From the NCBI GenBank assembly GCA_903887005.1, contig CAISOH010000446.1, positions 1-32,822 of the forward strand: a stretch of 32,822 bases of DNA, given 5' to 3'. Below, piece after piece: positions 2,336 through 5,789 of the stretch. This stretch comes from an uncultured Bacteroidota bacterium (lineage in GTDB: Bacteria; Bacteroidota; Bacteroidia; Chitinophagales; Chitinophagaceae). The position numbers were made by a program, and so were the translations under genes. Every line of letters starts with the position of its first letter. Within the stretch, counting starts at the first letter, position 1. Below the pieces are notes generated by a model. That model saw nothing but the letters and a program-made list of their open reading frames with translations, was not told the origin of the DNA and did not search any database.

Positions 2336-2343
2336 TAAGTTTG
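2336..2343 (+). promoter_or_regulatory. -7 box TAAGTTTG before the Cys-rich leader ORF
   Basis: TAAGTTTG fits TAnnTTTG exactly. Transcription would begin around 2350, about ten bases before the ATG of the small ORF at 2361. No clear -33 TTTG was found at the right distance. The position relative to the ORF supports the view that the ORF lies at the very 5' end of the cysS transcript. Confidence 0.45.
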
Positions 2344-2360
2344 TTTCAAATTATACTTTC

Positions 2361-2453
2361 ATGTCACAGCACAGGATTGTTGGAAAAAATCTACGGGCAT
2401 TTGCACAATTCATAGTTCAGCACGATGGTTGTTGTTTCTGCTGTTGTAACTAA
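2361..2453 (+). CDS. Candidate cysteine leader peptide upstream of cysS (30 aa)
   Basis: A short frame, ATG 2361 to TAA 2451, encodes 30 residues. It starts MSQHRIVGKNLRAF and ends DGCCFCCCN. Five of the last seven residues are cysteine, encoded by TGT TGT TTC TGC TGT TGT at 2430-2447. Cysteine is otherwise rare, and the next gene encodes cysteinyl-tRNA synthetase. Leader peptides rich in the amino acid that the downstream gene handles are the sensors of ribosome-mediated attenuation: low charged tRNA-Cys stalls the ribosome on the Cys codons. A TAnnTTTG box lies just before it, and self-complementary segments begin at its stop codon. I infer a cysteine-responsive leader. The peptide itself probably has no function. 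The N-terminal half looks basic and may be conserved, which I cannot test. Confidence 0.6.
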   Translation: MSQHRIVGKNLRAFAQFIVQHDGCCFCCCN

Positions 2454-2581
2454 GTACCTCCTTTGTTGCCTACTGATATGTTGTTAAAACAAAGGCTGCA
2501 TTCATAATATATTCTTCCCGGTACTTTATCCGTTTCTTTTTAACTTATTTTTGCATCCGTTTAAGCGTTTCCTCACGGGAA
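2452..2581 (+). promoter_or_regulatory. Candidate attenuator region between leader ORF and cysS
   Basis: Three complementary segment pairs are visible. AAGTACC (2452-2458) pairs perfectly with GGTACTT (2520-2526). Inside it, CCTTTGTT (2460-2467) pairs with AACAAAGG (2488-2495). TTCCCG (2515-2520) can instead pair with CGGGAA (2576-2581), which competes with the outer stem at base 2520. The first arms begin at the leader stop codon, so a ribosome finishing the leader would cover them, while one stalled on the Cys codons would leave most of them free. There is no obvious U-run after either stem, so a classical intrinsic terminator is not shown. Rho-dependent or translational control is possible. 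The folding was judged by eye. Confidence 0.35.
2546..2553 (+). promoter_or_regulatory. Second -7 box TATTTTTG closer to cysS
   Basis: TATTTTTG matches TAnnTTTG and lies 56 bases before the cysS ATG. If used, it would give a leader-free basal transcript of cysS next to the regulated longer one. The upstream -33 position has only TTTA. Confidence 0.35.
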
Positions 2582-2609
2582 CCGTTTCAAACACAATTTT
2601 GAACTAATT

Positions 2610-4103
2610 ATGTCAGAACTTCATTTTTATAATTCTTATACACGCCGTAAGGAAAAGTTTGAATCTATAACACCGGGTTATGCCGGTTTATATGTCTGCG
2701 GCCCTACCGTTTCCGGCGAGAGCCACCTGGGACATGCCCGCCCTTACATTACTTTCGATGTGGTGCAGCGCTACCTGAAACATCTCGGCTATAAAGTGCG
2801 GTATGTACGCAATATCACCGATGCAGGCCACTTTGAAGAAGAAGGCCGCGAAGCAACCGATAAAGTAGATGAAAAGGCCAAGCTCGAAAAGCTGGAACCT
2901 ATGGAACTGGTACAAAAATATACCAATCTGTACCACTGGGGTATGCATCTTTTTAATTGCGAAGACCCTGCTATAGAGCCAACCGCCACAGGCCATATCA
3001 TAGAGCAGATAAGCATGATCGAAACGATCATTGAAAAAGGTTATGCCTATGAAGTAAACGGCTCCGTCTATTTCGATGTTAAGAAATACGCCGGAAATTA
3101 TCCTTACGGCAAGCTATCGGGTCGTGTATTAGACGATCAGCTTGAAACTTCCCGTGATCTGGACGGACAGGATGAAAAACGCAATAAGGCTGATTTTGCA
3201 CTCTGGAAAAATGCTCCGCCGGAACATATCATGCGCTGGAAAAGCCCATGGGGAGATGGCTTTCCGGGCTGGCACATTGAATGCTCTGCCATGAGCAGTA
3301 AGTACCTCGGCGAAACATTTGATATTCACGGTGGCGGAATGGACCTGCAGTTCCCGCACCATGAAAGCGAGATTGCCCAGAGCACCATAGCCCACGGCCA
3401 TCCGCCGGTTCGCTACTGGATACACAACAATATGATCACCATCAACGGTAAGAAGATGGGCAAGAGCTATAACAATGTGATAAAACTGTCTGAGTTGTTT
3501 AGCGGCAATCATCCCATATTAGAGCAGGCATATCATCCTATGGTTGTCCGTTTTTATATTTTACAAACCCACTACCGCAGCACCCTCGACTTTTCAAATG
3601 AAGCGCTGCAAGCATCAGAGCGGGCTATACGAAGGCTTTGGGAAGCATATGAATTACTTCAGAAGCTCAACCATCCCGGCAACACCGAAGCGCAGGATAA
3701 AACCCTTGACCAGCAGGTAGTGGCCTGGTGCAATGAATTATCAGACTTCATGAATGATGATTTCAACACAGCCAAAGTAATTGGTAACCTTTTTGAACTC
3801 GCACCGGTAATAAATGGCATAAAAGGTGGCCAGGTTGCTGCCGGTGCGCTTTCCTCAGGTACATTTGCCATGCTGAAAGATACCTTTAAAATTTTTCTTG
3901 AAGATATCCTTGGTATGCAGCCGCTCCAGGCGCAGCAAAGCAACAACCTGGATAATGTGCTTTCCATATTGATAGAAATCAGGAAAGACGCCAAAAAAAG
4001 AAAAGACTTCGCCACCAGCGACCAGATAAGAAACAAGCTTGCGGAAGGCGGGATTTTGCTAAAGGATGAAAAGGATGGAAGTATGAGTTATACGATTGAA
4101 TGA
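2610..4103 (+). CDS. cysS: Cysteinyl-tRNA synthetase
   Basis: CysS attaches cysteine to tRNA-Cys, a cytosolic class I aminoacyl-tRNA synthetase reaction using ATP. The protein has 497 residues, close to the family length. Visible features: Cys30 in YVCGPTV (zinc ligand position), the HIGH-type motif HLGH at 39-42, the HIECSAMS segment with a further zinc-binding cysteine, [18 protein letters not shown], and the KMSKS-type motif KMGKS at 282-286. The C-terminal part has the helical DALR-like domain and ends in a short lysine-rich region. It is preceded by the Cys-rich leader ORF and a 156-base region with possible secondary structure. The stop codon is 12 bases from the darT start, so darTG may be read by the same transcript. 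Confidence 0.97.
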
Positions 4104-4115
4104 TAAGAAAATGCA

Positions 4116-4736
4116 ATGACTGACCTGAATAAAATTTATCTTTTCAGGATGACGCATATTGATAATATACCGCACATCTTAAAGTGCGGTATTACACATG
4201 TATCATCACCCAACTGTAATAAGCAATACATACCAATTGGTGATAGTAGTCTTATAAACAGCAGGGCAGGATTTATTATGCCAAACGGGAAAAAAATAGG
4301 AACTTATATACCTTTCTATTTTTGGGGCAGGATGCCAATGCTGTATGTAATCCAGAAAGGATTCAATAACGTTGCAGTCACAAACCCTGAAAATATTGTA
4401 TATTGTGTACTTACTATAGCTAAAGTTATTGAACATAAACTGGAATTTGTTTTTACAAATGGCCATGCGGTAGATCAGTATAGCGATTTTTTTGGGATAA
4501 CCGATATTGCCCAAATTGAAAATATTGTAGATTTTAATGCAGTCAAAACACAATATTGGAAAAACGACAATGACCTCGATTTGAAACGAAGAAAAGAAGC
4601 AGAATTTTTAATTGGATGCGATATTCCTGTTACTGCAATTGCAGGTTATATTGTTTATAGTGAAAACGCTTGTGTTAAATTGCAGCAAATGGGTGTTAAA
4701 AATGAAATCAGAATAAATAATAATTTTTACTTTTAG
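4116..4736 (+). CDS. darT: DarT-type DNA thymidine ADP-ribosyltransferase toxin
   Basis: The 206-residue protein fits the DarT family (DUF4433), which uses NAD+ to ADP-ribosylate thymidine in single-stranded DNA and so blocks replication. It has the N-terminal motif LFRMTHIDNIPHIL at 9-22, YIPFYFWGRMPML around 64-76 with Arg72, FTNGHA with His117, and RRKEAEFL at 158-165, where Glu163 matches the catalytic glutamate. The order toxin then antitoxin with a 6-base gap is the normal darTG layout. Base composition is visibly more AT-rich than in cysS just before it, which suggests later acquisition. DarTG systems act as toxin-antitoxin modules and as phage defence. All key residues appear to be present, so the toxin should be active. 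Confidence 0.9.
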   Translation: MTDLNKIYLFRMTHIDNIPHILKCGITHVSSPNCNKQYIPIGDSSLINSRAGFIMPNGKKIGTYIPFYFWGRMPMLYVIQKGFNNVAVTNPENIVYCVLTIAKVIEHKLEFVFTNGHAVDQYSDFFGITDIAQIENIVDFNAVKTQYWKNDNDLDLKRRKEAEFLIGCDIPVTAIAGYIVYSENACVKLQQMGVKNEIRINNNFYF

Positions 4737-4742
4737 GAAGCC

Positions 4743-5789
4743 ATGATAAAATATGTAACAGGCGATTTATTGATGAGCAATGCACAAGCCCTTGTAAATA
4801 CCGTAAACACGGTAGGTATTATGGGCAAAGGAATCGCATTGCAATTTAAAAATACATTTCCTGATAATTATAAACAATACCTAAAAGCCTGTAAAGAAAA
4901 GTCATTTCAGGTAGGCAGTCTTTTTGTAACAATAGATGATTCATTACACTCCGGTCAAAAGATAATTATCAATTTTCCAACAAAAACAGATTGGCGGAAA
5001 CCATCAGAGTATAGTTATATTGAAAATGGTTTGAAAGAACTGGCAAAGGTGATTAAAGAACGGAATATCAAATCAATTGCCATACCGCCGTTAGGCGCAG
5101 GAAATGGTGGCCTTGAATGGAATAAGGTTAAACATTTAATCGAACTTTATTTAGCTGATATTGATTGTGATATTTCCATTTATCAACCAAATTATATAAT
5201 ACAGGAAGCATTAAAAAAAGAACGTGTAAAGCTTACCCCTGCAAGGGCAATGTTGCTTGCAGTACTATTTGACCTTGTAAAAAACGGAGAATTCGTGTCG
5301 GAATTTGCGGCGGAAAAGATTGCTTATTTCCTGCAACGTTTCGGAGCCAAAACAATCTTTAACCTGGATTTCCAGCCAAACTTCTACGGCCCGTATTCAG
5401 GCAAGGTAAAACATGTACTTTATTACCTGAATGGCAGCTATATAAGCGGTTATGGCGCTAAAGATAAAAAGCCCTTTGAAGAACTTAGTTTAATGATGGA
5501 TGCGGAGTCAGATGTAATTGCTTTTCTCAATGGCCCGGGGCATAATGAATATAAACTGATAGTCGAAAAGACAAAAACTTTCTTATTTGGTAACTATTCC
5601 TACTTCGCTTTGGAATTACTCTCTACAATTGATTATATCATGCAAACTGAAAAAATAAATTCTCTTGATAAAATCCAGGCAAAATTGATCAGTTGGAGCG
5701 ACCGTAAGAAAACACTTTTTTCAAATCAGAAATTTGTGTCCATCGCATTACAGAACTTGCAAAAAAATAATCTTTGTGAAAAGAACTAA
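4743..5789 (+). CDS. darG: DarG antitoxin: macrodomain DNA ADP-ribosylglycohydrolase with C-terminal toxin-binding domain
   Basis: DarG removes ADP-ribose from thymidine and also binds DarT. The N-terminal macrodomain (about 1-155) shows ITYVTGDLL-like start MIKYVTGDLL, VNTVNTVGIMGKGIALQFK at 18-36, FPTK with Lys81 at the catalytic lysine position of the family, and the glycine-rich loop GAGNGGLEW at 118-126. The C-terminal half (LTPARAMLLAVLFDLV onward) corresponds to the second domain of full-length DarG, which in known examples blocks the toxin directly. Length (348) is normal. It lies 6 bases after darT. Its 3' end overlaps or abuts a small ORF of unknown function, so the operon probably continues. 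Confidence 0.9.
   Translation: MIKYVTGDLLMSNAQALVNTVNTVGIMGKGIALQFKNTFPDNYKQYLKACKEKSFQVGSLFVTIDDSLHSGQKIIINFPTKTDWRKPSEYSYIENGLKELAKVIKERNIKSIAIPPLGAGNGGLEWNKVKHLIELYLADIDCDISIYQPNYIIQEALKKERVKLTPARAMLLAVLFDLVKNGEFVSEFAAEKIAYFLQRFGAKTIFNLDFQPNFYGPYSGKVKHVLYYLNGSYISGYGAKDKKPFEELSLMMDAESDVIAFLNGPGHNEYKLIVEKTKTFLFGNYSYFALELLSTIDYIMQTEKINSLDKIQAKLISWSDRKKTLFSNQKFVSIALQNLQKNNLCEKN

Follow-up and report, generated by a model that had tools for sequence, protein, structure and literature searches.

The gene cysS (cysteine--tRNA ligase) of an uncultured Chitinophagaceae bacterium (Bacteroidota) is preceded by a small leader open reading frame (ORF) ending in a run of Cys codons. Quite probably, this ORF encodes a cis-acting peptide that senses charged tRNA-Cys for cysS, as part of a ribosome-read cysteine regulon in which a hairpin at the leader stop codon may serve as read-out. 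The stretch of DNA analysed (hereafter the window) is a 32.8-kb contig, CAISOH010000446.1, from a draft genome of 5.96 Mb; its genus is called here Flavipsychrobacter-like (the genus name is inferred), and counts given for ‘the genus’ concern relatives of the window within it. The ORF, its Cys run, the coding constraint in the genus, the position of a promoter-like box, a stop-codon hairpin seen across the set of leaders, and the identity of the target genes are all established by comparison between sequences.

The leader, the boxes, the stems and cysS all lie on the forward strand of the window. The leader ORF (positions 2361–2453, 30 codons, MSQHRIVGKNLRAFAQFIVQHDGCCFCCCN) ends in GCCFCCCN, its stop codon TAA occupies 2451–2453, and a similar ORF exists in relatives. 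The putative sensor is the codon cluster TGT TGT TTC TGC TGT TGT (2430–2447), with Cys codons at 2430–2435 and 2439–2447, i.e. five Cys among the last seven sense codons. On the 5′ side of the ORF stands a promoter-like box of the TAnnTTTG type, hereafter P1 (TAAGTTTG, 2336–2343), 17 nucleotides (nt) from the leader ATG. A second promoter-like box, P2 (TATTTTTG, 2546–2553), is located in the interval between leader and cysS. The putative target, cysS, extends from an ATG at 2610 to 4103 (TIGR00435, 440.1 bits for a cut-off of 340; PF01406). An earlier note made on this DNA had named these elements, together with the stems discussed below, and all of them are indeed present in the sequence. A short ATG ORF with at least five Cys in eight near-terminal codons was obtained in 1 of 5000 dinucleotide shuffles of 2242–2609. 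The window leader peptide matched no family of Pfam or NCBIfam, and an Rfam scan of the window returned no family at gathering score, T-box included; at E ≤ 5 over 2240–2640, the sole Rfam match was a snoRNA model (E 4.4).

Upstream regions of cysS were gathered from the genus, named relatives, the family and other families of the order (214 in total, 15 named loci having been excluded by hand earlier as duplicates of other genomes in the set). Five regions were too short or masked (L021, L056, L100, L132 and L235), and another 22 duplicated the last 200 nt of some other region; once these were dropped, 187 distinct regions were left (150 of the family, 37 of other families in the order), with a cysS start that is approximate where the protein match began past residue 1. 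The strict test for a leader was an ATG ORF of 6–45 codons with at least four Cys in eight codons near its end, and the relaxed test three Cys in six codons. Under the strict test, a Cys leader was detected before cysS in 44 of the 187 regions on the forward strand, in three on the reverse strand and in 0–1 regions per set across 20 shuffle sets. Leu came next among the other residues (10 forward, 14 reverse), all remaining ones giving at most six forward; the relaxed Cys test yielded 52 forward regions versus two on the reverse strand. All strict leaders except one belong to the family (43 in 150 regions), and the single outside match (L220) was dropped as dubious, as it is far from cysS. Leaders with at least three Cys precede cysS in half of the genus regions (16 of 32) and, with one region counted per genus, in 16 of 53 further genera (these 53 being the ones with coordinates listed among 92). 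The Cys leader is thus real, Cys-specific and frequently lost or gained. Four genus members that have no strict leader (L018, L019, L020 and L023) retain CGATGTTG at roughly the corresponding place, possibly as decayed or short leaders.

The anatomy of these leaders was described on a set of 50 cysS leaders (43 strict and seven relaxed). L220 was left out, as were L062 and L098 (three Cys each, L098 being near-identical to L095), and two near-identical pairs (L024/L259 and L110/L184) were retained. Leader length ranges from 11 to 37 codons (median 18) and the number of Cys from three to six; the last Cys is the final residue in 31 of the 50 leaders, and at most three residues follow it in 48. 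Outside the Cys run, the peptide is divergent between genera, as judged by eye. Nine of the genus leaders are alignable around a motif, IQH.GCC, which recurs in most of them. Over 14 codons of these nine leaders, non-synonymous differences (pN 0.245) are rarer than synonymous ones (pS 0.627; pN/pS 0.39), pN being lower than pS in 35 of 36 pairs; the two remaining frames give ratios of 0.91 and 0.73. The leader frame is therefore under purifying selection in the genus, which supports its translation. Accordingly, the conservation in relatives that the earlier note had put forward as a check on the ORF and its Cys cluster is borne out by the genus regions, by the family regions and by this selection. 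Separately, a subgroup of cysS leaders (L086, L095, L097, L098, L103 and L108) ends in C.CG(I/N)A, and a TATCTTTG box adjoins the leader stop codon in L086, L095 and L108. By eye, a leader start AATGAAGA complementary to TTCTTCATT shortly 5′ of cysS was noticed in several of L088, L089, L102, L105 and L110.

TAnnTTTG is the promoter consensus of the Bacteroidota. A TAnnTT[T/C]G box is found at most 45 nt 5′ of the leader ATG in 38 of the 50 cysS leaders (shuffle mean 2.5, maximum 7), at a distance of 4–7 nt in 26 of these 38 loci. P1-type boxes may thus act as promoters, in which case many leaders would be nearly leaderless. Between the leader stop codon and cysS, a TAnnTTTG box is present in 23 of the 50 loci, the window included (shuffle mean 3.4, maximum 9), and such a box is also present within the last 70 nt 5′ of cysS in 74 of 100 leader-less family loci; the second box is read as an ordinary cysS promoter, retained in some leader-bearing genomes. 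The other 27 leader loci lack a TAnnTTTG box in this interval. When TAnnTT[T/C]G is allowed, the only box is the pre-leader one in 20 of the 50 loci, so that in those genomes leader and cysS are most likely carried by one transcript. Transcription of cysS solely from the box at 2546, which the earlier note had named as fatal to its claim, is conceivable for the window itself, but those 27 loci have no such box.

Cysteine leaders are not confined to cysS. When 19 relatives were scanned with a pattern, the 30 sites examined at locus level, out of 191, led to cysH (phosphoadenylyl-sulfate reductase; NF002537, PF01507), with a Cys leader on its 5′ side in L311. CysH is matched in 80 of 117 family genomes; in the genome of the window, no match was obtained at E ≤ 1e-10. 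Among the 30 best-scoring of the 80 family loci (L321–L350), 23 display at least three Cys in eight near-end codons and 19 at least four, and the reverse strand of the same 30 loci gave no Cys leader. Outside the family, in a sample taken across the class, six of 28 cysH loci had at least three Cys (four of them convincing, all from one genus), and the remaining 22 were without match; the reverse strand of these loci gave one match. In 11 of 14 genomes chosen by eye and compared by coordinates, cysE is 3.2–3.4 kb from cysH; the cysH leader probably opens an operon for sulfate assimilation, which in many genomes has cysE some 3.3 kb further on. Directly 5′ of cysE, a Cys leader was found in three of 28 loci under the strict test and in one more under the relaxed test (28 of the 30 returned loci were used, the weak matches L407 and L408 being left out). 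As a control, 30 hisS loci gave no strict Cys leader and no His run, and one weak ORF with three Cys (L428).

The genome of the window was scanned in the same spirit with two patterns. The first pattern gave 94 Cys-type sites, versus 12 for the reversed pattern, and the 30 sites examined out of 94 contained six short ATG ORFs, none convincing. One of these six, L162, lies just 5′ of a 223-codon ORF or overlaps its start. The second pattern gave 82 sites, 12 of which end in TGG, which is not a stop codon; 40 were taken as 39 stretches and 30 loci were treated automatically. The 63 sites scanned yielded nine short ATG ORFs that terminate in CCC-stop, and a promoter-like box accompanies none of them. 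No second convincing Cys leader was therefore found in this genome among the sites examined (30 of 94 for the first pattern, 63 for the second).

In the explanation favoured here, the effect of the leader on its target would depend on RNA structure. The earlier note had proposed a switch made of alternative stems: an outer stem AAGTACC (2452–2458)/GGTACTT (2520–2526), which spans 2452–2526 and begins inside the leader stop codon; an inner stem CCTTTGTT (2460–2467)/AACAAAGG (2488–2495), which spans 2460–2495, past the stop codon; and a competing pair TTCCCG (2515–2520)/CGGGAA (2576–2581). A pair of nested stems, each of 7 bp or more, was recovered in 4 of 1000 shuffles of 2445–2545, so the nested stems are improbable by chance, but they are not common to relatives. 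The 6-bp competitor is at chance level, a stem of that length appearing in 157 of 300 shuffles of 2500–2600. Moreover, among the 15 genus leader loci examined, TTCCCG, CGGGAA and the AAGTACC/GGTACTT stem occur in the window only, and a shared switch made of these stems is not supported. The core of that proposal, control by the ribosome in response to charged tRNA-Cys, does gain support from the nature of the targets, namely cysS, cysH and certain cysE genes. L008 has a different stem, AAAGCGA/TCGCTTT, at the place matching the outer stem of the window, and L004 and L009 have ATTTGTT/AACAAAT with a 5-nt loop near the inner stem, of which it is a relative. An alternative 7-bp pair, GTTAAAA (2483–2489)/TTTTAAC (2538–2544), spans 2483–2544, is incompatible with part of the inner stem and is common to the window, L004 and L009; this sharing is weak evidence, as no base differs among the three loci. 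A candidate hairpin GTTT...AAAC (2559–2592), in the interval between P2 and cysS, was noticed by eye in genus members and is unproven, because RNAalifold gave no consensus on that genus alignment. No conserved alternative fold was recovered in the genus leaders either, the RNAalifold consensus being devoid of structure, and the folding energy of the whole window leader (2352–2620) is not better than that of shuffles (z +0.54).

A different and more general structure emerges around the leader stop codon. Sliding windows were folded and compared with shuffles, positions being given relative to this codon. Folding peaks at the stop codon in the 50 cysS leaders (mean z −1.12, standard error (s.e.) 0.18, at −12..+33) and in 27 cysH leaders (mean z −0.92, s.e. 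0.18, at −30..+15); z is near zero in the furthest-upstream window and near zero or positive from +24 on. A score for hairpins with the stop codon in the loop reached 11.83 for cysS, against 9.25 for shuffles (standard deviation 0.51), and none of 500 shuffle sets attained it; the cysH score was attained by 4, 0 and 2 of 300 shuffle sets at three settings. Typically, the last Cys codons pair with bases just past the stop codon, as in TTGTTGC/GCAACAA of L191. In both cysS and cysH loci, the RNA past the hairpin contains little G and much U and C (G 0.113 and C 0.22 in cysS spacers; G 0.108 and C 0.25 in cysH spacers).

The scheme that we favour would then operate as follows. Transcription would start just 5′ of the leader. 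Under a shortage of Cys-tRNA, translation would stall in the Cys run, at or near the stop codon, and the ribosome would hold the hairpin open and allow the gene to be expressed. When Cys-tRNA is ample, the ribosome would finish and depart, leaving the RNA free to fold the hairpin at the stop codon, and the G-poor, pyrimidine-rich stretch behind would favour termination before the gene, alone or perhaps with Rho. The same device before many cysH and some cysE genes of Chitinophagaceae would constitute a ribosome-read cysteine regulon. The sensing step, in which a lack of charged tRNA-Cys slows the ribosome at Cys codons, follows from the well-established principle of attenuation by leader peptides, and the sign of the response (more CysS and CysH when Cys-tRNA runs short) is deduced from the target genes. 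We thus infer the promoter activity, the stalling, the response sign and the read-out step, the last of these being the least certain and weakest step of the explanation. For this step, attenuation of transcription is favoured over masking of the start site, for which folding models offer no support. In addition, Bacteroidia ribosomes are described as failing to recognise Shine-Dalgarno sequences (PMC9976891), hence the usual model of start-site masking may not apply.

Several observations weigh against this scheme. The leader is dispensable, being absent from 16 of the 32 genus regions, from 37 of the 53 other genera and, apart from one dubious match, from the 37 regions of other families. 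For the window considered alone, the stop hairpin does not reach significance (p 0.40), and, taken individually, p is below 0.1 in only 15 of the 50 cysS loci and z below −1 at −12..+33 in 28 of them. In the spacers, C exceeds G only modestly (by 0.107, versus 0.056 in leader-less loci). Sites resembling intrinsic terminators exist in only eight of the 50 cysS loci (shuffle mean 1.9, maximum 4), so the element is not classed here as a classic attenuator of the terminator type. A plain Rho model predicts the wrong sign unless the hairpin or the ribosome hides the loading site, and the window does possess P2 on the 5′ side of cysS. Finally, kinship among the sequences inflates the significance of the comparisons with shuffles, and the frequency of 23 in 30 for cysH may be overstated, because the query used to rank these 30 best-scoring of 80 loci bore a leader itself and may favour leader-bearing relatives.

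Among the competing explanations, the one closest to an experimental precedent is translation attenuation as in mycobacteria, by which the released leader RNA would hide the cysS start and a stalled ribosome would expose it, transcription being unaffected. We consider it unlikely, if the most serious of the alternatives. With the Cys codons masked, the mean openness of the cysH start site over 26 loci does go up, from 0.516 to 0.559 (a rise that has no null), but this small rise is not upheld, as replacing the leader end by shuffles had no effect in cysH (−0.013, s.e. 0.011, n = 27) or in cysS (+0.005, s.e. 0.007, n = 50). For cysS, the modelled openness hardly moves when Cys codons are masked (0.594 to 0.602, n = 50) and the spacer at +24..+69 is predicted to be less structured than shuffles (z +0.34, s.e. 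0.09); masking of the start site of the next gene was accordingly rejected in folding models. A somewhat less likely candidate is Rho-dependent attenuation in which the stop hairpin plays no role, the C/U-rich, G-poor spacer loading Rho once the ribosome leaves. The composition of cysS and cysH spacers and the scarcity of terminators are in line with it, and Rho was proposed in 2005 for terminator-less Cys leaders of Actinobacteria (PMC1262725). It would, however, leave the folding peak at the stop codon unexplained, and the spacer would stay accessible under a ribosome stalled further upstream, which is the wrong sign; Rho sites, moreover, are not reliably callable from sequence.

The remaining explanations dispense with attenuation altogether. 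That cysS is expressed from P2 only, the leader lying on a separate short transcript with another role, would suit the second box of the window and the similar boxes in 23 of the 50 loci, as well as those of the 74 leader-less loci; it is nevertheless improbable, given the 27 loci that have no TAnnTTTG box there, the 20 in which the sole box precedes the leader, and the occurrence of leaders before three different cysteine genes. This last point also renders very improbable a small Cys-rich protein, for example a metal-binding one, adjoining cysS fortuitously, since among the genes compared such ORFs precede three cysteine genes and not hisS. The recurrence of IQH.GCC in most of the nine genus leaders, together with their constrained frame, would agree with such a protein, but different genera have in common nothing more than the Cys run adjoining the stop codon, length and Cys number vary widely (11–37 codons, three to six Cys), and the window peptide belongs to none of the Pfam or NCBIfam families. 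As for a chance origin, or TTG/GTT repeats in the DNA that happen to be translated as Cys, repeats of this type are common (94 sites versus 12 in the genome of the window), yet the enrichment of leaders is specific to frame and strand, and the nine CCC-stop ORFs at the 63 scanned sites all lack a promoter-like box. Of the 150 family regions, 45 contain a short ATG ORF with a run of at least three Cys, versus 10 for Leu and nine for Val, so that such repeats alone are an insufficient cause, and this explanation is hardly credible.

A Trp-codon attenuator exists in the Bacteroidota, namely the Bacteroid-trp RNA. This cis-regulatory RNA, named for trp (RF01692; PMC2864571), occurs in the same phylum as the cysS leader; it differs in the amino acid concerned, and no RF01692 match was detected in the window. 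For a Flavobacterium, strong clues have been reported for leader-peptide attenuation 5′ of amino-acid operons and for structured 5′ untranslated regions of aminoacyl-tRNA synthetase genes, in a passage which does not name cysS (PMC9723704), and leader-like small ORFs are mentioned in Bacteroides (PMC7366714).

For cysteine itself, precedents come from other phyla. The polycysteine leaderless short ORFs of mycobacteria (Canestrari et al. 2020) are described as acting by translation attenuation (via PMC13236596, PMC9031893 and PMC9094748). As is probable in the present case, a short ORF with a Cys run at or near the transcript start precedes several cysteine genes and is read by the ribosome; unlike them, as far as these descriptions go, the leaders reported here have cysS among their targets and show no hiding of start sites in folding models. 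Regarding the position of the start, the distance between box and ATG is here 4–7 nt in 26 of 38 loci and 17 nt in the window, the transcript start being judged from the boxes. Cys leader peptides have also been described for the cys operons of Mycobacterium and Propionibacterium acnes and for cbs of Bifidobacterium longum (PMC1262725). These actinobacterial leaders likewise have their Cys codons in runs close to the stop and possess no conserved terminator, with Rho suggested; they belong to another phylum, and cysS does not appear in the main text of that study. A further likeness is the uORFC-8-2 motif, found 5′ of cysS in Rhodobacterales and published in 2021 as a predicted ribosome-mediated attenuator (PMC8632094), in which a leader ORF also precedes cysS with its Cys codons in a stem. 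According to its description, which sets it apart from the present leaders, this motif has two tandem Cys codons, usually at positions 14–15, and a terminator stem with a U-run in its consensus, whereas the leaders described here carry three to six Cys, mostly at the very end, mostly have no terminator and occur in another phylum. The earlier note knew of no well-described cysS case in Bacteroidota. Indeed, a Cys leader of cysS appears unreported for this phylum in the literature searched, where none was found, although an earlier notice is possible, for instance in the comparative study of Lopatovskaya et al. 2010, and cysS attenuation as such had already been predicted in Rhodobacterales.

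The genes surrounding the leader and cysS can be briefly described. Directly 5′ of the leader, two adjoining genes (468–1316 and 1330–2241) encode rhomboid-domain membrane proteins, of which the second also matches DUF6576 close to its end. On the 3′ side of cysS, 12 nt past its stop codon, comes a DarT/DarG toxin–antitoxin pair (4116–4736 and 4743–5789; NF048013, 178.3 bits, and NF048014, 390.4 bits).

Taken further, the favoured scheme leads to a tentative proposal, to which we give somewhat less than even weight: Chitinophagaceae may possess a cysteine regulon (cysS, the cysH operon and cysE) with a read-out of a new type, namely a stop-codon hairpin acting on G-poor RNA, which would be neither Shine-Dalgarno masking nor an intrinsic terminator, and the IQH.GCC motif may add stalling by the nascent chain in the Flavipsychrobacter-like genus. 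With respect to amino-acid sensing by leader peptides in Bacteroidia, a short frame-specific element before three cysteine genes constitutes a directly testable system. Cysteine genes could thereby be co-regulated without a common transcription factor, and these leaders yield a search rule for unannotated small ORFs in Bacteroidota.

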